From positions 1 through 33,302 of the forward strand of contig MHJY01000036.1 of the NCBI GenBank assembly GCA_001818235.1: 33,302 bases of DNA, read 5' to 3'. The position numbers were made by a program, and so were the translations under genes. Below the pieces are notes generated by a model. It ran no database searches and was not told the origin of the DNA. It was given only the letters and a program-made list of their open reading frames with translations. Shown in pieces: positions 22,011 to 31,789 of the stretch (positions are counted from its first letter, which is position 1; every line of letters begins with the position of its first letter). The stretch comes from Candidatus Jacksonbacteria bacterium RIFOXYB2_FULL_44_15. GTDB taxonomy: Bacteria; Patescibacteriota; Patescibacteriia; UBA9629.

Positions 22011-25000
22011 ATGTCTGCCGAGACACAACCACAATTTGGATTTGAACAGCCAGAATATCAGCCTAATATTCAGGTTCTTACTGCTGAAAAAGAAAAAATT
22101 AGTACCCCAGAGGAGACTGACCAAAAAATTATTGATTGGGCTAAAGAGTGGCTAGAAAAAGCATTTGATCAAAATCAGAATCTCGACCCAGATATACCCC
22201 TTGAAGTACAGATAGGAATACAAAACGAACTGGAAACAAAAATCGCCAACCTAACTGATCCTCAATATCTTACTACTGGTTATTTATCGCCGGAGTATAA
22301 AAATGGCGTTAATATTTTTTTTAGTGAACTGGTAAAATTTATTGGCACTCACGCACGCTCGGCCAATAAATTAGAACGCGATAAATTGACTCGCTTTATA
22401 GGAACCATTACAAATGCATTATTTTCCAGTAGCGGGAGCATCGACACGCAAATGGATGCTGATGTATTACTTTTGGAAACTGCAAAGTTAACGCGGATAC
22501 CGCAGGCGCGCGGATTTCTCAGCAGCGGAATTTTAAGCTCATTGGCTTATCAATTACAATTCTCTGGAGAGGCCGCCCGTCGAATTATCAAAAGCTTCCC
22601 GCTATTACCGCCGGAAGAACAAATGGATGTATTAAAACAACTGGCGACAGTCGGCGCGACCGCCCTTGGCACCGGGTACTTAGAAGCCTTTGGACTAGTA
22701 AAAAAGATCGTTGAGCAAGGGCAAAACGAAAATAATTCACCGCTAGTTCAGTACGAAGCTAACCTTGTTTTGGAACAACTTAATCAAGAAACGCATTCAC
22801 CCAGCCTTGATCTTGTTACGTCAGGGCGGCCGGATGAATCACGTTTGGCAGAAAAGGGTATTGCAGAAAGATTAACGGAAAGCCAAAAATGGGAATCGTT
22901 GATTAATTCTGACCTAAAGCCGAGTAATGATACTTATGCCCGGGTGGCCGCGGATGCGATCGCGACTCTTGACCACAGCGGTTTACCGCAAAAATTAACA
23001 CAATTGGAGCTGTCCACGTTGCCCGAAAAGCCAAATGCGATTAATCTTGGCATACTAAAACGAGTTTTGTATAAAGCCGATAATCCTGACGAATATCATT
23101 TAGACCTAATTAATGACCTCAGAACTACCAATCTACAAATTATTGAAAAATTAAACGGAAAAGAAAACCCTGCGCAAGAATGGGCGGGGATATCAGACGT
23201 CTTATCAGAGAGAGAATGGGCTGATTATCTGGACTTATGCAATCAAAAAAAGCAGTGGGATGTCCAGTTTCGACAAAAACAAGAAGATGTAGAAAAAGAA
23301 AGGCTAATGCAAGCCGAACAGGCAAGCCTGGATTTTTTAATCTTCTTTCAAAACGAGGCGCCAAAAATTATTGAACAAGATACTACCGATAAAGCGCAAA
23401 TGTTAAAACAACTCTATGATAATTTCAATTCCCATTTTATTGCGCTACAACAAAATCATGACCCTTTGTTAATGGAACAAGCGTTCAGCGCGGCAGAAAA
23501 ATTTATTTATTCCCTGAGATATAAAGAAATTTTGAGCGAATCGATAAGACTTCATAATTACGTCCAAGAGTTAGACATGCCAAAGGATGCAAAAGAAAGT
23601 CTTTTGGAATCTCTTTACATACTTAAAGATTCAATACCCAAAAAAAATGATTACCCTCCAGAAGTACAGCTTCTTATTAACCAGCACGAAGCGCTGAATT
23701 TGCGACACAGACAAGTCAACGAGCAGGCTTTAACCGAACTCAAAAATTATGCTGACTCGCTAGTTCCAAAAGATGCAGAAGAAAAATTTTTAACGCTTAT
23801 TAACAAACTTAAAGCGCAGTATCCAGAATTTGCCGATGATTTAGGCCAATATTTAACAAATCTCCAAGCAGATCTTGCGCCCAACTACTTCCCGGCCCAT
23901 TTTATCGACTATCAAGACAGCCCAGATGATCCAGCCTTAAACCCGTTTCCCGAAGGCAGTGCCGACGAAAACATAGCCTTATTTTTACAGGATCTACATT
24001 CGCCGGCTATGCGGGACAAGATCGAAGAAGACTTGGGCTTTAGCCTAAACGAACTGCCTTTAAACTCGCAAATCCATCTCTTGCGCTATTTGGCGAAGCA
24101 AAATAACACGGAGTGGCAACAGATTAGCGCTGTTTTTAAACAAAACCAAGCGACCCAGCCAGAATTGGCTATTTCTTTCCTCGCTTGCGCGGAAAATCAG
24201 CAATACGGTGATTTGATAATTGATCTTGCCTCGCGGCTCGAAAATCGCCCGGAGTTAACTAAACAAGTTTTGGAGCAATACGGCGAAATCGTAACTTTTG
24301 CACAAAAATTTCGTCAAATTGTAATGCCTTACCTCTTACAAGAAGCGCCAAACTTTAATCAAGATGATTTTTTTAGAGGGATGCTCCATTCAGCGAATAT
24401 TTACCTGGTTATTAGCGAACAAGAAATTCGCAACAATCCAAATATCGAATATCAAACTATATTAGATACTCTAAAAGAGCAGTGCCCTGGATTTGATCCG
24501 AGCAATTGCGCTGAAGCGGTAATTGCTGAGGCGGTAGTGGAACTGGTGAATCAAGTGGGGCTGGAAAAAACTCGCGATGTCTTAAACCGCGTTGCCCGCA
24601 ACAATTCGGACCAAAACGTACAAGAGCTAATCAATACTGCAATTTCATTTATAACCCCGCCGGTAGACGGCACGGCCGTACACCGCGTTGATGATTTATA
24701 CGAACACTTAATTAAATTCGAAGGCTACGAATACAGTACGCACGAAGCCGAATTAAAATTATTAAACAAATATACGACCCCCAATGATTTAATATTGGAT
24801 GACGGTTGCGGCACCGGCCGCCTCCTAATCCCACTTCGGCGAGAACTAGGCCGTAATGTTACTGGCCTGGATTATACAGGCCGACATGTAAATTATATTA
24901 AAAAGCAATTGCCTGACGCGCCAATATTACAAGGCGACTGGACAAATTTGGGTCTAAAGAAAGAAGCCTTTACCGTCGTTTATAGCCTGGGACGGAACAT

Positions 25001-25400
25001 CTTGCATGAATATCGGCCAGAACGCCAAAATCAGCTCTTCGCCGAAGCTAATCGCGTCCTTCAAATTGGGGGAAAGTTCATTATTGATATACCAGACCGC
25101 GATCTGGGGCATTATAAAAAAATAGTGGATGCCCACCGTGAGATTATGCAAGAACGAGGGATCGAAACTTTTCGCCAAAAAGGCCTGATTTACGACAGCC
25201 CTGATGACAAAAATTATTCTACCCGCTATTTATATAGTGAAGATGATATTTTAAAATTAGCGACTAGTAACGGTTTCGAAATCGAAGTAACCGAACGTGC
25301 ACCTTTAAACAATGGTTACGATGATGAAAATATTTATTATGTCTTAAAAAAAGTTGCTGAAGTAGCAAGTAACGCAGACACTAACTCAAACTTGTCGTAG
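22011..25400 (+). CDS. Large helical protein of unknown function with C-terminal class I SAM-dependent methyltransferase domain
   Basis: 1129 aa; C-terminal LILDDGCGTGRLLIPLRRELGRNVTGLDYTGRHVNYIKK...ADPSNL-like region; first ~900 aa match no family I recognise. Confidence 0.75.
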   Translation: MSAETQPQFGFEQPEYQPNIQVLTAEKEKISTPEETDQKIIDWAKEWLEKAFDQNQNLDPDIPLEVQIGIQNELETKIANLTDPQYLTTGYLSPEYKNGVNIFFSELVKFIGTHARSANKLERDKLTRFIGTITNALFSSSGSIDTQMDADVLLLETAKLTRIPQARGFLSSGILSSLAYQLQFSGEAARRIIKSFPLLPPEEQMDVLKQLATVGATALGTGYLEAFGLVKKIVEQGQNENNSPLVQYEANLVLEQLNQETHSPSLDLVTSGRPDESRLAEKGIAERLTESQKWESLINSDLKPSNDTYARVAADAIATLDHSGLPQKLTQLELSTLPEKPNAINLGILKRVLYKADNPDEYHLDLINDLRTTNLQIIEKLNGKENPAQEWAGISDVLSEREWADYLDLCNQKKQWDVQFRQKQEDVEKERLMQAEQASLDFLIFFQNEAPKIIEQDTTDKAQMLKQLYDNFNSHFIALQQNHDPLLMEQAFSAAEKFIYSLRYKEILSESIRLHNYVQELDMPKDAKESLLESLYILKDSIPKKNDYPPEVQLLINQHEALNLRHRQVNEQALTELKNYADSLVPKDAEEKFLTLINKLKAQYPEFADDLGQYLTNLQADLAPNYFPAHFIDYQDSPDDPALNPFPEGSADENIALFLQDLHSPAMRDKIEEDLGFSLNELPLNSQIHLLRYLAKQNNTEWQQISAVFKQNQATQPELAISFLACAENQQYGDLIIDLASRLENRPELTKQVLEQYGEIVTFAQKFRQIVMPYLLQEAPNFNQDDFFRGMLHSANIYLVISEQEIRNNPNIEYQTILDTLKEQCPGFDPSNCAEAVIAEAVVELVNQVGLEKTRDVLNRVARNNSDQNVQELINTAISFITPPVDGTAVHRVDDLYEHLIKFEGYEYSTHEAELKLLNKYTTPNDLILDDGCGTGRLLIPLRRELGRNVTGLDYTGRHVNYIKKQLPDAPILQGDWTNLGLKKEAFTVVYSLGRNILHEYRPERQNQLFAEANRVLQIGGKFIIDIPDRDLGHYKKIVDAHREIMQERGIETFRQKGLIYDSPDDKNYSTRYLYSEDDILKLATSNGFEIEVTERAPLNNGYDDENIYYVLKKVAEVASNADTNSNLS

Positions 25401-25405
25401 GTAGA

Positions 25406-26251
25406 TTAGGAGGATTTAGTACTGTTTGCTTTCTGCACCCAAGGCGCATCCGCCTCGGGCGGACAAGCGCGCGCACCTGTAGTCGCTTGCGCCCAGGCTA
25501 ATTTAAAAAAAGTTTTCATGGTGTTATAAATATGTGGACTCTCTAAAATAACGCCGATTAGTTCGTCGGCGCGGTAAGATATAAAAGCGACCTTATTCTG
25601 GCCATAAATATTTACTTCTACCGCGACTGGATAATCTTCGCCAGAAATTACTAATGTTTCGCGTAAAGATTTTTCGTCCAATTGGTGATAATTAACTGTT
25701 TCCTTTGACATTGGCGCGATAACTTGAGCTTTAATTCCAGCTTTCACCCGAGCTTTAATATAAGTGGCGTCCAGCCATTTTTTTAAATTAGGTTCAATTT
25801 CTGCGGGCGTAAGTAAGGCATAGATCATTTCCGTATTAACCAGCGTGTCCAAATAAACCTGTTTTAGCCCTTCCACGCCCTCAAAAAACCTGATTCCTGG
25901 CCGGCCGGAAATAAGGTTAAAAGCCGAAATCAATCCAGGCAGGGAACTGGTAAGTGTTTTTTCAACGTTTTTTAACTGCCCTTGGCGCTCTTCCAAAAGC
26001 GCGGCCAGTGCGGACGGGTGAGTCGAGCGAAAAGTGGTTACCTGGCCAGGCTTGGTTTCTTTCTCTGCCAGCCCCAGCTTAACTAAATCATCCAGCAACT
26101 TATAAACCAACGCCCGCTTATAGGGCGTTTTTAATGTTAAGTCCCGCGCCTTAAGAGCACCAATTTTAAGCAGGGTCTCGTAGATTACGATTTGATCCGA
26201 AGTTAAACCGATTGTTTGTAATAGGGATTCATGCATAGCTGTATTATACAC
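25406..26251 (-). CDS. TrmB-family transcriptional regulator
   Basis: LTSDQIVIYETLLKIGALKARDLTLKTPYKRALVYKLLDDLVKLGLAEKETKPGQVTTFRSTHPSAL winged helix with a C-terminal TrmB-like effector region. Confidence 0.8.
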   Translation of the reverse strand: MYNTAMHESLLQTIGLTSDQIVIYETLLKIGALKARDLTLKTPYKRALVYKLLDDLVKLGLAEKETKPGQVTTFRSTHPSALAALLEERQGQLKNVEKTLTSSLPGLISAFNLISGRPGIRFFEGVEGLKQVYLDTLVNTEMIYALLTPAEIEPNLKKWLDATYIKARVKAGIKAQVIAPMSKETVNYHQLDEKSLRETLVISGEDYPVAVEVNIYGQNKVAFISYRADELIGVILESPHIYNTMKTFFKLAWAQATTGARACPPEADAPWVQKANSTKSS

Positions 26252-26366
26252 CTGCCTCGATATATTGTCAAAAAAACTATGACACTTTTTTGGCTTTATT
26301 ATTAGCCTTTTTGAGTTTATTACTAGCCTAATTCGCTGTTACTTAATGATTATTGTCTATCTACTC

Positions 26367-26395
26367 TTGACAATATTTTAGACATATGCTATAAT
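26367..26395 (+). promoter_or_regulatory. Full-consensus sigma70 promoter TTGACA-N17-TATAAT
   Basis: TTGACA 26367-26372, spacer 26373-26389 (17 nt), TATAAT 26390-26395; points into a non-coding region. Confidence 0.85.
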
Positions 26396-26401
26396 ACGCA
26401 G

Positions 26402-26553
26402 TCAAATTGAAAATTTAAACAGCCGGCTTTTAGACAACCAGCTAAAAGCTAGCCTAACGAGGAGAGAGAAAATTAACTGGGCTCATTTTATCATGTCTAT
26501 ATTTAACGTGACATAAATGGCCTCGGAATCTCTCCGGGGCCATTTATTTTTTC
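26402..26553 (+). ncRNA. Structured RNA element 1 with terminator
   Basis: Starts just after the consensus promoter; CTTTTAG/CTAAAAG and ATGTC/GACAT hairpins; GGAGAGAG 26461-26468; terminator hairpin AATGGCC...GGCCATT + TATTTTTT (26515-26552). Confidence 0.65.
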
Positions 26554-26579
26554 GCCAACATCACAACCGGAGCGGAAAG

Positions 26580-26762
26580 ATCGATGTAGAAGAGGAGAGA
26601 GTAAATTACTTAAGTCTACTGGCAGGTGTGTTGATAAAATAAAAAAGTTAAATCAACAACTGCCAACTAAGTAAATACAAATAGCTTGTCGTGCCAACTG
26701 CTCTTGCGGTAAAAGCCTTTGGCTACACCCAAAAGCGGCGGCCTCGTCTACATCGATTTTTT
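26580..26762 (+). ncRNA. Structured RNA element 2 closed by a long terminal stem
   Basis: ATCGATGTAGA (26580-26590) perfectly complementary to TCTACATCGAT (26747-26757), extended by GAGG/CCTC, followed by TTTTTT; GGAGAGAG at 26594-26601; inner hairpin TGGCAG...CTGCCA. Confidence 0.65.
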
Positions 26763-26783
26763 CGCCAAATCAAGGTAGCAGTC

Positions 26784-26897
26784 AGAAAAGTGGGGAGAGA
26801 GAATTAGTGCCGGACAATCCTTAAACTGGTTTTTGGATCAATAAAAGATCTAAAAACTAGAATAACGGAGAAAGCCGCACCCTATCCCTACTTTTCT
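26784..26897 (+). ncRNA. Structured RNA element 3 closed by a long terminal stem
   Basis: AGAAAAGTGGGGA (26784-26796) pairs with TCCCTACTTTTCT (26885-26897); GGAGAGAG 26794-26801; inner GGTTTTTGGATC/GATCTAAAAAC hairpin. Confidence 0.6.
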
Positions 26898-26924
26898 CAC
26901 TACTATCTTTAAATAGAAAGTGAG

Positions 26925-27080
26925 TTGAAAATTTAAACCGTGCTCTTGATTTTAGACAATTAAATTAACCTACCGAAAGGAGAGAGTTAATTTCCTAAGG
27001 TCACGAGCCGACCATAAAAATAGCCAAGCGGAATACCCAACTCTGCACAGCTGTGCGGAGGGATACAAGCTTGGCTACAA
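26925..27080 (+). ncRNA. Structured RNA element 4, partly homologous to element 1
   Basis: Shares TTGAAAATTTAAAC, TTTTAGACAA and GGAGAGAG (26979-26986) in the same order as element 1; hairpin TAGCCAAGC...GCTTGGCTA enclosing GCACAGCTGTGC. Confidence 0.55.
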
Positions 27081-27225
27081 AAAGTGCGAAAATATCCTTA
27101 ACTTTACCGCTTAAAACGGTAATAGTGAGGAGACTCTCGGGACAAAAATTTATTGCCCCGAGAAATGTCCTTACTAACTAACCCCTGGACAAAGATTTAC
27201 TATGCCTACTTAAAGAATAAAAAAA

Positions 27226-27298
27226 TAAGTAAGAAAATACGCTGCCAGTGAGCTTTTTTTTACAACTTTGCTCATTGGCAGTAATTTCCTTACTTTTT
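27226..27298 (+). terminator. Long hairpin AAGTAAG..CTGCCAGTGAGC..GCTCATTGGCAG..CTTACTT
   Basis: Two stacked stem segments with a T-rich loop and following TTTTTATT; terminator-like or RNA domain. Confidence 0.5.
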
Positions 27299-27301
27299 AT
27301 T

Positions 27302-27500
27302 ACTCCTGTCGTTATGAGGAGAGCAGGAGTGATGTTTTAAAAAGAGTAGGTTCCGGCTAAACCGGAACACCGGGCGCGGTAAGCAGTGCCCGCGGGGTGA
27401 TCTTTGAAAATTTTTCTCTAAACTCCCAATCAGAAGCCAGAAATTATATATAAATTCGCGCTTCTCGCTTGGGAGCTTAGAGAAGCTTCGCACTGTATAT
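27302..27500 (+). ncRNA. Run of hairpins at the distal end of the non-coding region
   Basis: ACTCCTG/CAGGAGT with loop containing GAGGAGAG; GTTCCGG-CTAAA-CCGGAAC; CACCGGGC/GCCCGCGGGGTG; CTCTAA.CTCCCA/TGGGAG.TTAGAG; CACT/AGTG. Confidence 0.5.
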
Positions 27501-27544
27501 AGTGAGAGGCAAAAAAAACAAATAAAAACTAAGGTGGTAATGTT

Positions 27545-27784
27545 TCATTTACTATGCCTTAAAACGATAAATTCCGCTGGAGTAATTTCTAAGTCATCAA
27601 GAATCGCCTTGAAAGTTTGGCGCTTAATGCCGGCAGAACCGTGGCGTGGGATAGTAGTGTAGCGACCATCCGAACGGCGCCAAATTTCGTGGCTTCCCTT
27701 ACCCTGCCGATAAAAAACAAAACCCAATTTACGGGCAACTTTAGCGACGTCTGCATAGTCAGCTTGAGGAAACTTAGGAGCCAT
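27545..27784 (-). CDS. hicA: HicA-family mRNA interferase toxin
   Basis: 79 aa; KVARKLGFVFYRQGKGSHEIWRRSDGRYTTIPRHGSAGIKRQTFKAILDDLEITPAEF. Confidence 0.92.
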   Translation of the reverse strand: MAPKFPQADYADVAKVARKLGFVFYRQGKGSHEIWRRSDGRYTTIPRHGSAGIKRQTFKAILDDLEITPAEFIVLRHSK

Positions 27785-27789
27785 AAAAC

Positions 27790-28077
27790 TTATAACGAAA
27801 CCGGCAAAGGTAAGGAGAAACGAAAATCTTTTTGAGACTTAAATGATACGCTCGGGATAAAATCACCTTCGGCCTGACGAACTTGGATTTGCGTTTTGAT
27901 GACATCTTGAATGTTCTCTATTACTTCCGAATAGCTGGCTCCTTCGGCATGACAGCCCTGCAAAGTAGAGCAATCAGCAAAAAAACCACCTTCCTCCATG
28001 GGCTCTATCGTAATTGGAAAAAAATACATTTCTTTGGCCATATTTTTACTAATTTTATTTAATGTAGCGGTACGCAT
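27790..28077 (-). CDS. hicB: HicB-family antitoxin
   Basis: 95 aa; FFPITIEPMEEGGFFADCSTLQGCHAEGASYSEVIENIQDVIKTQIQ. Confidence 0.9.
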   Translation of the reverse strand: MRTATLNKISKNMAKEMYFFPITIEPMEEGGFFADCSTLQGCHAEGASYSEVIENIQDVIKTQIQVRQAEGDFIPSVSFKSQKDFRFSLPLPVSL

Positions 28078-28092
28078 AATAAACTTTAGAAG

Positions 28093-28302
28093 TTAAAACT
28101 GGGAGCGTAATTCTTTAAGAGATTTAATTTTTCTCACTTTGCCAGAGGTATAATCTTTTTCTGCTCGCGATAAACTGGCCAAAAATTCCGAATTAAAAAA
28201 CCCAAAATAAGCCGCTAATTTTTCGAATTTGTTTGCATCTAGCTCAATTACTATTTTTTTTGACGTTTTGCAGGGAGCGATATTAAGAGTTAGTGAAGCC
28301 AT
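28093..28302 (-). CDS. Small putative antitoxin-like protein
   Basis: 69 aa from ATG at 28302; IVIELDANKFEKLAAYFGFFNSEFLASLSRAEKDYTSGKVRKIKSLKELR, with an antitoxin-like DYTSGKVRKIKSLKELR tail. Confidence 0.55.
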   Translation of the reverse strand: MASLTLNIAPCKTSKKIVIELDANKFEKLAAYFGFFNSEFLASLSRAEKDYTSGKVRKIKSLKELRSQF

Positions 28303-28445
28303 AATTTGATTGATTATTATTCCCAGTATATTATTTTGCCAGGATTGTGTCAAATTTAGTCCCTTCTTAAAAACCCATGTCATTCCTGGTGTTTTAAGAG
28401 GGGATTACCCTTCTATGTTAAAGTTTAAAATTCACCAAAAAGGAG

Positions 28446-29813
28446 GTGAAAATTTTGAGGTTTAAAGGGGAAAAAGCATTGGAACGGTTGCTTGATGACC
28501 CGCTACAGGCGATCCAAGATAGCGAGATCATCTGCCTGCTATGCGGGCAACCCTTTCAGTCGCTGTATGCGCATTTACATACGCATCAGGTTTCGCCTGA
28601 TGAATATAAGCGATTGATCGGGTACAAAGATGGCGTCTTTTTGATTGCCCGTGGGAAAACGCCTGAGTTTGTAAAAACAGCACGGGCACAAGTGATTTCG
28701 GAAAACGTCGATGGTTACTGGGACGCGACGTTGAGTGAAGACGTAAACTGCCAAAACATAGCCGGTGTGTTTGGCATAACCGAAAAACAAATTTGGAAAC
28801 TTTATACCGGCGACTCCCAGTTAAAAAAAATGCGCGAGACTCCCTATCGCGCAATTGGGAAACAATCAATTACTTGTTTGGAGTGTGGTAAAAAATTTCG
28901 CTCACTCACTACTGACCACCTCCGAACACACGGTCTCGATACTTGGGCAGAGTACAAAACAAAATGGGCGTACGCCCAACATACCCAGTTAAATAGTCAT
29001 TCGGCTTTTATTGACTATATAATTGGCCGGGATAGAAAAATTGTGACTAAACGCTGGAACGCGCGTGGCTGGCAAGGGCGGCCGTGCACAGTTGATGACG
29101 TTATTTCTCTTTGGGATGTATCAAAAACCCGCGAAGAGAATTTAGACGCCATCGGTGAACAATTCGACCTTTGCTGGGGCGAAATTATCCATCTGTTTAT
29201 GGGCAAAAAGCATCCGAAAAAGCTCCAACTGATGGAGCTGATGGATAAAAGCAGCCAGCACAGCCAGCAGGAGCAATGCTCCGCAAAAAAATCAACCGCT
29301 AATCTTTTATCGGTTGATGAATATGAGGAGTTGAGTAAGCTCCTTGCTCTTGGCACTGATCCAGACATCGCCGCTTTAAAGTTAGGGATCCAACCTAACA
29401 CCGTAAAAGAATACACAAAGCGGCAAAAAAAAGCCCAGCGAAATTCAGAAAAAATCAGCCGCCTGAAAGCAGACCCAATGGCGGCAATTAATAATACAAC
29501 CATTACCTGCCTGGTCTGCGGGCAGGAGTTCAAAGTATTAACGGCCAATCATCTGGCCACCCACGGGCATACCGGCAAGTCGTACAAAAAGACTTTTGGC
29601 TATGCACCAGACGTGGCGCTGATGAGCCGGGAACAGTTGAAAAAGCAAGAAAACCGTGACCAGCGGTTAAACTGGGCAAATCCTGCTTGCCGTCCAGATG
29701 TTACGAAGGATCAAATTTTGACTTTGCGCGAGCAGGGTTGCAAAGTTGACGCAATTTCGGCGGAACTGGGAATATCACGTTCCCTGATTTACCGCCGGTT
29801 AAAGGAGGTATAA
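28446..29813 (+). CDS. MucR/Ros-like multi-zinc-finger protein with interspersed HTH segments
   Basis: Three CxxC...H..TH modules (IICLLCGQPFQSLYAHLHTH; ITCLECGKKFRSLTTDHLRTH; ITCLVCGQEFKVLTANHLATH) and HTH-like segments incl. C-terminal VTKDQILTLREQGCKVDAISAELGISRSLIYRRLKEV. Start may be TTG at 28455 after AGGAGG. Confidence 0.75.
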   Translation: MKILRFKGEKALERLLDDPLQAIQDSEIICLLCGQPFQSLYAHLHTHQVSPDEYKRLIGYKDGVFLIARGKTPEFVKTARAQVISENVDGYWDATLSEDVNCQNIAGVFGITEKQIWKLYTGDSQLKKMRETPYRAIGKQSITCLECGKKFRSLTTDHLRTHGLDTWAEYKTKWAYAQHTQLNSHSAFIDYIIGRDRKIVTKRWNARGWQGRPCTVDDVISLWDVSKTREENLDAIGEQFDLCWGEIIHLFMGKKHPKKLQLMELMDKSSQHSQQEQCSAKKSTANLLSVDEYEELSKLLALGTDPDIAALKLGIQPNTVKEYTKRQKKAQRNSEKISRLKADPMAAINNTTITCLVCGQEFKVLTANHLATHGHTGKSYKKTFGYAPDVALMSREQLKKQENRDQRLNWANPACRPDVTKDQILTLREQGCKVDAISAELGISRSLIYRRLKEV

Positions 29814-29814
29814 A

Positions 29815-30414
29815 ATGGGTTTTCCGGATTTATCGTTAGATTTTCCGTTCCTGGAAAATCCCACAGGACTAATCGTGGCCACTATCCGCCGGTGGTTTAG
29901 CAATTGTATATCAGAGGGCGGCCTTGTGGAATCGATGGACCTCTTTAATGTCGGGGTTGAGGCGCTTTGTATAGTCCGAGAAGCCATAGACAATGGCCAG
30001 CCAACACCCACATGCAAAGAGATCCGAAAAGCGGTCCGAAACGCTATGGCTTCTGTAGCATGGCGCCAATGGACCAAACGTACCCGCAAAGAAAGTGAAT
30101 TTTCCGCATTCGCCACACCTGATGACGAGGGCGATGAAGGCGGCGAGTTCACCGATTTTTACCCAAATCCCGAGGCAGAAATGCCAGAGGAGGAGGTACT
30201 GAATAGTGAATTGGTCCAGACGGTAATGGCCGCGGTTGGGCTTAATAATGAATTAGTGGAGAAAATTTTGTTTTTTGCTTTATTCACTAATCTACGACCA
30301 ACCGGCATTGCCGATCTTGTTCAGACAAAGGTTGAGGTCATAGCTCGGACTTTAACTATAATATTTGCGCGAGCTAAAAAAAATAAGCAGCTAAGGCAAT
30401 ACCTGGCTGCATAA
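29815..30414 (+). CDS. Uncharacterised protein, possibly divergent sigma-70-like
   Basis: 199 aa; DLFNVGVEALCIVREAI...EIRKAVRNAMASVAWRQW resembles sigma region 2; GIADLVQTKVEVIARTLTIIFARAKKNKQLRQYL resembles a region-4 HTH. Follows the MucR-like gene within 2 nt. Confidence 0.45.
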   Translation: MGFPDLSLDFPFLENPTGLIVATIRRWFSNCISEGGLVESMDLFNVGVEALCIVREAIDNGQPTPTCKEIRKAVRNAMASVAWRQWTKRTRKESEFSAFATPDDEGDEGGEFTDFYPNPEAEMPEEEVLNSELVQTVMAAVGLNNELVEKILFFALFTNLRPTGIADLVQTKVEVIARTLTIIFARAKKNKQLRQYLAA

Positions 30415-30478
30415 GGGGGTGATTAGGGGGATTTTGGTTGAGATTTCGCACTGCTCCTAAAATCTCCCACCTTTTTCT

Positions 30479-30763
30479 TTAATGAAACAATCGTTTTAAT
30501 TTTTCGTAGAAATTTTCCCGCGTCTTAGCAAAATGAAAAACAATTTCCTTTTTTTGAGGATTAACAGTATAAGCTACCCTATATGCAACATTACCAACCT
30601 TAAAATGGAAAGAGTATAAAAAATGTAACGATCCGGAAAGTTTTTCGCCAGCATAAGGATTTGTCTCTAATATTCTGGTAACTCTAATTAACTCCTCGCG
30701 CACATAAGCTGGTAACCTCTTAAGCGAACGTTTGGCAGTGGGTGTAATAACTCGTTGGTACAT
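30479..30763 (-). CDS. RelE/ParE-family toxin
   Basis: 94 aa; ITPTAKRSLKRLPAYVREELIRVTRILETNPYAGEKLSGSLHFLYSFHFKVGNVAYRVAYTVNPQKKEIVFHFAKTRENFYEKLKR. Confidence 0.88.
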   Translation of the reverse strand: MYQRVITPTAKRSLKRLPAYVREELIRVTRILETNPYAGEKLSGSLHFLYSFHFKVGNVAYRVAYTVNPQKKEIVFHFAKTRENFYEKLKRLFH

Positions 30764-30765
30764 AA

Positions 30766-31002
30766 TTACCTAATAACTTCCAACGGCTCCACTTGACCAG
30801 CAGCCGCTTCGGCTAAGCTCGCCTCTAAATCTACCATCAACTCTTGATCTAATAAGAGAGAAAGAGACTCGGTATCTTGCGGTGAAAGTAAACCCTTAAG
30901 AGTTTTAAGAGTCATTACTGCTTGTTGCGCTTCTTCTAAAATGCGAAAGCGTACATCAGCTGGAGGAAATTCGGTTGATTTTAAAAAAGTTTCTTTGGCC
31001 AT
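30766..31002 (-). CDS. Putative antitoxin partner of the RelE-like toxin
   Basis: 78 aa, 2-nt gap to the toxin, co-directional, upstream. Confidence 0.7.
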   Translation of the reverse strand: MAKETFLKSTEFPPADVRFRILEEAQQAVMTLKTLKGLLSPQDTESLSLLLDQELMVDLEASLAEAAAGQVEPLEVIR

Positions 31003-31027
31003 AGTTGAATTTACAATTTACAGGCGC

Positions 31028-31057
31028 ATTATAAGATAGAAAAGCTACGTTTGTCAA
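31028..31057 (-). promoter_or_regulatory. Consensus promoter TTGACA-N18-TATAAT for the RelE TA module
   Basis: Reverse complement reads TTGACAAACGTAGCTTTTCTATCTTATAAT immediately upstream of the antitoxin gene. Confidence 0.7.
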
Positions 31058-31082
31058 TAAATTGAAGCCGCACGAACACTTT

Positions 31083-31135
31083 TTTGCCTAGATCTCTCGC
31101 TGATTTCATAGAAATTAGTGAGGGACTTGGGCAAA
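31083..31135 (+). ncRNA. Long near-continuous hairpin in the csm operon leader
   Basis: TTTGCCTAGATCTCTCGCTGATTTC-ATA-GAAATTAGTGAGGGACTTGGGCAAA pairs over most of its length with G-U wobbles. Confidence 0.55.
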
Positions 31136-31255
31136 GTGAGATAAAAATCAAATCGCTCCGCGCGGGATTAAAACCGCACTGATATATTTTATATCAGCCC
31201 AAGAGGAGCAAATTCAAAACAAGCTCAAAAAGAGCTAAAAATGGAGGTCCGAAAA

Positions 31256-31789
31256 ATGGGTTACAATGGAAATCGTGGTGGCTATCGTGATGATAGGAGA
31301 GACGATCGACGGGATGATCGACAACAAGCGCCAGCCGGTCCGTTTGAAAAAGAGATTTTTGCGAATAGCGGAAAAAACCTGACAGAGACTGGTAAGACGA
31401 GAGTGCAAAGTGCGATAGTTAATGGTGACCCGTTTACGGCTAACGAGCTGGCAGAAGGCTTGATCGACGTTTTGTCGTCAAAGCGCTTTTCAAAAAGCCA
31501 GTTTGGGTTAGTCCGTAATGGAATTACAAAAGTAGAACGCTCGTTCACAAAAAAGGATGCCACAGATGCAGAACATGCCGTCGCGGTATTGGATTTTAAA
31601 ACAGGGTTGATTCCTATAGGAATACGACATGCTAATGCAGGTGGTGGATTTCTGGTTACTTTAATAACAGCCGCAATTGAGGCTTCAATCATAACGGTCG
31701 AGAATTGCAAAAAAATTGATCAAAAGCTTTTTGCTAATTTCCAAACCCTTATGAGGTATCTCACAAACCACGCTGTAAAATTACAGTAA
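31256..31789 (+). CDS. csm2: Csm2-like small subunit of a type III-A CRISPR-Cas effector
   Basis: C-terminal helical region LDFKTGLIPIGIRHANAGGGFLVTLITAAIEASIITVENCKKIDQKLFANFQTLMRYLTNHAVKLQ fits Csm2; immediately followed by Csm3. RBS GGAGG supports ATG at 31256. Confidence 0.7.
   Translation: MGYNGNRGGYRDDRRDDRRDDRQQAPAGPFEKEIFANSGKNLTETGKTRVQSAIVNGDPFTANELAEGLIDVLSSKRFSKSQFGLVRNGITKVERSFTKKDATDAEHAVAVLDFKTGLIPIGIRHANAGGGFLVTLITAAIEASIITVENCKKIDQKLFANFQTLMRYLTNHAVKLQ

Follow-up and report, generated by a model that had tools for sequence, protein, structure and literature searches.

Does the hairpin-rich stretch at 26400–27540 encode several small RNAs, one large RNA or the leader of a longer transcript, and what might it control? 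The window, meaning the whole 33,302-nt stretch of DNA that was analyzed, is an entire contig (C36) of a 1.25-Mb genome in 54 contigs (G000). The initial annotation had described a tandem array of structured non-coding RNAs, about 1.15 kb in length.

Architecture of the window RNA

No ORF of at least 80 aa is present over 26400–27540. Stretch by stretch across the RNA, folding z-scores are −4.0, −6.2, −7.9, −7.1 and −9.7, and the region forms the longest low-z run in a scan of the whole window. It is preceded by a sigma-70 type promoter (TTGACA-17-TATAAT, 26367–26395, + strand) that matches the consensus at 12 of 12 positions, carries a TG before the −10 element and is the sole strong + strand promoter within 26200–31300. 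When the window RNA was compared with Rfam 15 (4227 families, including OLE, GOLLD, ROOL, RNase P and tmRNA), there were no matches at the gathering score; the relaxed matches (mir-653, mir-2755 and an L10 leader at 21 bits) are far under the cut-off. A full-consensus promoter, a lack of ORFs, a structured RNA and the absence of a known family had each been proposed from the letters, and each holds.

The + strand carries the motif GGAGAGAG at 26461, 26594, 26794 and 26979, exactly where it had been noted, and scanning the whole window returned a single further copy (18010, − strand). Dinucleotide shuffles give an expected count of 0.33 for the whole window, and at least five copies were found in 0 of 100 shuffles.

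Read 5′ to 3′ on the + strand, the RNA begins with a boxA-like site (AGTCAAATTGAAAATTTAAACA, 26400–26421), which scores 10.2 against a matrix built from 18 rRNA-leader sites of the class. Module E1, identified by the motif count and a pattern search, carries the first GGAGAGAG (26461–26468). Behind it stands a terminator-like hairpin of 15 pairs with a T run (26513–26552), detected by folding and by a promoter and terminator scan and backed by a stem shuffle test; TCTCTCC, complementary to GGAGAGA, occupies its loop and the start of its 3′ arm (26529–26535). Modules E2 (26572–26765) and E3 (26772–26909), defined by fold and covariation, are each bounded by a long closing stem P1 (26572–26595 with 26742–26765, and 26772–26796 with 26885–26909), and GGAGAGAG is placed at the inner end of each (26594–26601 and 26794–26801). 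The arms of these two elements, and the ATTTTTTCGCCAA shared by E1 and E2, are as first described. Module E4 opens with two boxA-like sites (26918–26939 and 26946–26967, scores 12.0 and 10.0) ahead of the fourth GGAGAGAG (26979–26986); its leader sequence resembles that of E1, the two elements having TTGAAAATTTAAAC, TTTTAGACAA and GGAGAGAG in common. Farther on, folding predicts a long imperfect hairpin (27221–27300), where the relaxed Rfam matches amount to miRNA-like noise, and a hairpin (27298–27333) with GAGGAGAG in its loop, confirming the loop position claimed for GGAGAG (27318–27323). A fourth boxA-like site (GTGATCTTTGAAAATTTTTCTC, 27397–27418), found in the matrix scan, holds TCTTTGAAAATT, 12 nt that recur unchanged in the rRNA-leader boxA of a relative (G001). 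Predicted 3′ hairpins (27411–27510) close the structured region.

Relatives, module types and boxA-like sites

DNA similarity searches of 58 near genomes returned short chance matches and no relatives, and searches of phages and plasmids likewise returned no relatives. Pattern searches of 384 genomes of the class first revealed clustered GGAGAGAG in G092 and G269, and then a locus in G367. A pattern modeled on the window and G269 (GGAGAGAG-N50/80-TCTCTC-N8/38-T6) gave 18 matches in the 384 genomes, compared with 1 for the reversed control. The 17 distinct loci comprise seven antisense tRNA genes, one coding sequence, one promoterless hairpin and eight loci led by a strong promoter 33–88 nt upstream, which the pattern does not require. 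This added six leader-like loci (G302, G237, G010, G333, G241 and G348), so that, with the window included, the design is seen at ten loci, each in a different genome of the class. The distance from promoter to first GGAGAGAG is 14–270 nt, usually 33–88 nt. In all ten, the first 300 nt past the first GGAGAGAG fold far better than shuffles (z of −3.2 to −8.8), and an Rfam scan of nine loci covering the other nine genomes gave no match. The search of related genomes suggested at the outset thus yielded relatives in nine of them.

Outside the class the picture differs. The same pattern in viral contigs gave 97 stretches; among 80 testable matches one had a promoter, and it is an antisense tRNA. 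A longer composite pattern had 0 matches in viral contigs, and GAGGAGAGAGTNAATT was not found in about 350 sampled genomes from other classes of the phylum. Matches to the single motif, in the class and in wider genome contigs, are mainly chance or coding, the majority of the 68 within the class being chance. A terminator hairpin resembling E2, from a genome that does not belong to the class (L156, − strand, 493–545), has the loop GAGAGTAAATTA and a stem ending in GAGGA; it was also judged to be chance. We are almost certain that the family exists, and its description as a structured RNA family without an Rfam entry, seen in one bacterial class, is well supported.

Two types of module can be distinguished: a first GGAGAGAG followed by a terminator-like hairpin, and later GGAGAGAG copies at the base of a long stem. 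For the first type, eight loci have, past the first GGAGAGAG, a hairpin that ends in a T tail and carries a complementary TCTCTC in the loop or next to it. The invariance of GGAGAGAG and TCTCTC is not evidence in itself, because both were fixed by the search pattern; promoter, stem and boxA were not part of it. Each of the seven E1 loci other than the window also has a promoter of the form TTGACA-16/18-TAnnnT upstream of its first GGAGAGAG. In seven of the eight, the stem formed around TCTCTC and ending at the T run is better than in dinucleotide shuffles (p of 0.01 or less). The exception is G241, in which the stem is seen by direct reading and the loop is larger than the shuffle test allowed. 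As in intrinsic-terminator attenuators, a hairpin and T run lie between promoter and genes. In half of the eight loci (G302, G237, G333 and G241) the best predicted fold has GGAGAGAG and TCTCTC paired and contains no terminator, which suggests that E1 may adopt two mutually exclusive folds. A leader peptide after GGAGAGAG was considered and fails in most loci.

Later GGAGAGAG copies are found at the inner end of a long stem (score of 34 or more) in 7 of 11 cases, compared with 2 of 251 GGAGAG sites, drawn from the retrieved loci and not from random genome positions, and 0 of 10 first copies. The stem copy in G333 was found after the placement rule was set. In an alignment of P1 from seven elements in five genomes, 90.8% of cells pair and both sides have changed in 11 of 14 pairs; the sequence differs everywhere while pairing is kept. 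The covariation score is 0.878, against a maximum of 0.341 for slid partners, and is reached in 0 of 500 shuffles. This test leans towards structure, because stems were sought within each sequence, a bias from which the 251-site placement control is free. Covariation over five genomes thus upholds the early impression, gained from E2 and E3, that the fold is kept while the stem sequence differs.

The rRNA-leader sites behind the boxA matrix were picked by a seed motif. Across the window, four + strand matches score at least 10 (26400, 26918, 26946 and 27397), all inside the RNA, and three − strand matches do so, all outside it; 500 shuffles of the window RNA yielded at most two. Taken together, the ten loci have a boxA signal in the interval from promoter to first GGAGAGAG with a combined p of 4e-5 in the sense direction and 0.90 in the antisense direction, placing boxA near the transcript 5′ end for the ten loci as a group. 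The best match lies 17–28 nt upstream of GGAGAGAG in 6 of 10 loci and is weak in four (G092, G237, G241 and G302). Leader scores reach 12.3, at the low end of the range for rRNA sites (12–28). All five genomes tested encode NusB and a single NusG, with no NusG paralogue. The rRNA leaders lack GGAGAGAG, so the RNA is not a displaced rRNA leader.

Neighboring genes and competing explanations

The window RNA is flanked by genes for a TrmB-type regulator and a HicB-type antitoxin, both on the − strand; downstream it first meets convergent genes, and no + strand gene starts until 0.9 kb farther on. Beyond are a ROS/MUCR-type protein and a 199-aa protein (+), a ParE-like toxin (−) and, 3.7 kb downstream of the RNA, csm genes (+). 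Csm3 (7e-47) and the start of Csm4 (3.6e-6) were matched, and the 182-aa protein ahead of csm3 is called Csm2 by position only. The − strand toxin–antitoxin genes have promoters of their own; to judge from the sequence, the lone strong + strand promoter is consistent with a long + strand transcript that would reach csm. In G333 convergent genes again come next, with no + strand gene in the stretch examined, and the G010 locus is cut short by a contig end. In the remaining seven loci (G269, G092, G367, G302, G237, G241 and G348) codirectional ORFs follow about 150–800 nt past the RNA. The proteins behind the leaders have marginal matches and no significant family in Pfam, PADLOC or PHROGs, with the exception of a recombinase farther down in G348; across all loci these databases name little beyond Csm3, Csm4, ROS/MUCR, ParE, HicB and that recombinase.

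Several features of the surroundings were recorded separately. TrmB-type regulator homologues (24% identity, E of 2e-15) adjoin the RNA both in the window (25406–26251) and in G367 (L102, 1–573); this neighbor might be a regulator of the RNA, or its position might be chance. Upstream in the window, 22011–25400 encodes a protein of 1129 aa whose C terminus carries a methyltransferase domain and whose long N-terminal part has no family assignment. The ROS/MUCR-type gene (28350–29550; three ROS/MUCR matches and a helix-turn-helix) has an unusually structured sense strand and a 17-pair hairpin immediately ahead of it. Long near-perfect hairpins (31075–31245, z of −5.9) immediately precede the first csm gene, possibly as another regulatory element of the CRISPR operon. 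In G269 (L089, 1000–3500, − strand) there is an operon of small membrane or secreted proteins with the same two-hairpin element, CTCTTTYCCAAGRYTA...TTTTAGAAAAG, behind each gene; at its end is a hairpin loop with CTCTCTCC, complementary to GGAGAGAG of its own leader. The leader-following genes of G367 (L102, 600–2980, − strand) are about 60% G+C in a contig of 45% and have in common a 49-nt palindromic spacer (98% identical), which together suggest a foreign origin; G+C is also high in the genes behind the leaders of G302, G237, G241 and G348. The promoter, small genes, palindromic spacers and reversed toxin–antitoxin genes also led us to consider an integron-like arrangement; spacer sequences vary between loci.

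With the observed modules, their recurrence, the covarying stem and the association with promoter and boxA in hand, the best reading, by analogy with nut, put and LoaP leaders, is a termination/antitermination leader of a new family. That 26400–27540 is a modular cis-acting leader RNA controlling elongation of the transcript from 26367 has, in our judgment, about an even chance of being right. Polymerase started at 26367 would meet the T-tailed E1 hairpin about 150 nt on. The boxA-like sites would recruit NusB/NusE, and GGAGAGAG would pair with the TCTCTCC of the E1 hairpin or bind a putative factor, tipping the balance between stopping and reading through. Modules E2–E4 may repeat or strengthen the effect, and polymerase would thereby carry on into downstream accessory genes. 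We infer the read-through control, the binding factor and a transcript reaching the + strand genes of the window (ROS/MUCR-like and csm2–4). More tentatively, these could be class-restricted large modular RNAs in which GGAGAGAG loads a dedicated putative factor, forming a new complex for processive antitermination through which mobile sets of accessory genes are controlled; in this genome these would include the type III-A CRISPR locus.

The main rival is a stand-alone large ornate RNA, possibly processed, that acts in trans as OLE, GOLLD or ROOL might; proteins would bind it at GGAGAGAG, and its link to the codirectional genes would be loose. About 1.15 kb without an ORF, z-scores down to −9.7, repeated modules of kept fold and an invariant motif amid variable stems would all suit it. 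The gene arrangement in the window and G333 speaks for this reading, and at least there the RNA may act by itself. Against it, seven relatives run directly into genes with a ribosome-binding site, the E1 hairpin and T run 150 nt past the promoter would shorten the transcript, and OLE, GOLLD and ROOL gave no Rfam match; we regard it as possible but rather doubtful. The proposed roles as a sponge or defence RNA gained no direct support, despite the nearby csm genes.

Several small RNAs, each with its own terminator and with GGAGAGAG as a seed for CU-rich targets, would account for E1 (a promoter, about 150 nt and an intrinsic-terminator-like hairpin) and for the T run that also ends E2. This is unlikely, given one strong + strand promoter in the region, later modules that lack promoters and a T run after P1 that is missing in most E2 relatives. 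Of the tandem array first proposed, the repeats stand, but as modules of one leader-like architecture also present in nine other genomes and not as a simple array of separate RNAs.

The STAB-SD element of Bacillus is a Shine–Dalgarno-like sequence that binds 30S subunits and stabilizes mRNA. The motif, as RRGGAGAGAG, could be a similar stabilizer or ribosome decoy, 30S binding without a start codon protecting or insulating the transcript. Most copies have an AGGAG core, and direct reading of the eight E1 loci showed no consistently placed start codon, with a nearby one only in G302 and possibly G241. This explanation leaves the conserved AGAG after GGAG, the TCTCTC hairpin, boxA and the covarying P1 unaccounted for, and we consider it quite improbable. 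Chance or artefact in AT-rich low-complexity sequence with hairpins is very improbable given recurrence in ten genomes: purine-rich motifs do match easily, as the single-motif matches in the class illustrate, but every control comparison (stem placement, boxA, reversed pattern, E1 stems, viral contigs, folding and covariation) runs contrary to it.

Significance and comparison with known systems

The family defined here is one of structured RNAs that Rfam lacks; its hosts are uncultured bacteria with small genomes whose gene regulation is almost unknown, and its modules offer concrete targets for mutation. It suggests a common switch ahead of accessory genes that are otherwise unrelated. Should antitermination be the true role, the Nus-type systems would gain one with neither a NusG paralogue nor a known N-like protein.

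Transcripts of rRNA, phages and CRISPR loci are targets of the Nus complex (PMC12691694). As in boxA antitermination (lambda nut, rrn leaders, CRISPR arrays), boxA-like sites lie near the transcript start, often by a structured element, and NusB is present. In contrast, nut and rrn sites have no GGAGAGAG modules or long P1 stems, and a good boxA is not found in every locus here. No N-like protein is known for this leader system.

In the LoaP/dfn system, a structured 5′ leader with an RNA element and then an intrinsic terminator lies ahead of an accessory operon (PMC12691694). The structured leader and terminator-like hairpin before accessory genes are similar, but the five genomes tested have a single NusG without a paralogue, and this is not a LoaP leader; nor was a UNCG dfn hairpin noticed. 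Attenuators such as riboswitches, T-boxes and r-protein leaders likewise combine promoter, leader, terminator-like hairpin and a possible competing pairing (here GGAGAGAG:TCTCTC). Unlike them, this RNA matches no riboswitch, T-box or leader in Rfam, has many repeated modules past the first hairpin and places one motif ahead of unrelated genes. OLE, GOLLD and ROOL are ornate bacterial RNAs, large and extensively folded, whose function is unclear (PMC12286853). The RNA described here is also large and highly folded; it differs in that neither Rfam nor phage records gave a match, viral contigs gave none that is leader-like, module number varies by locus, and genes usually follow it.
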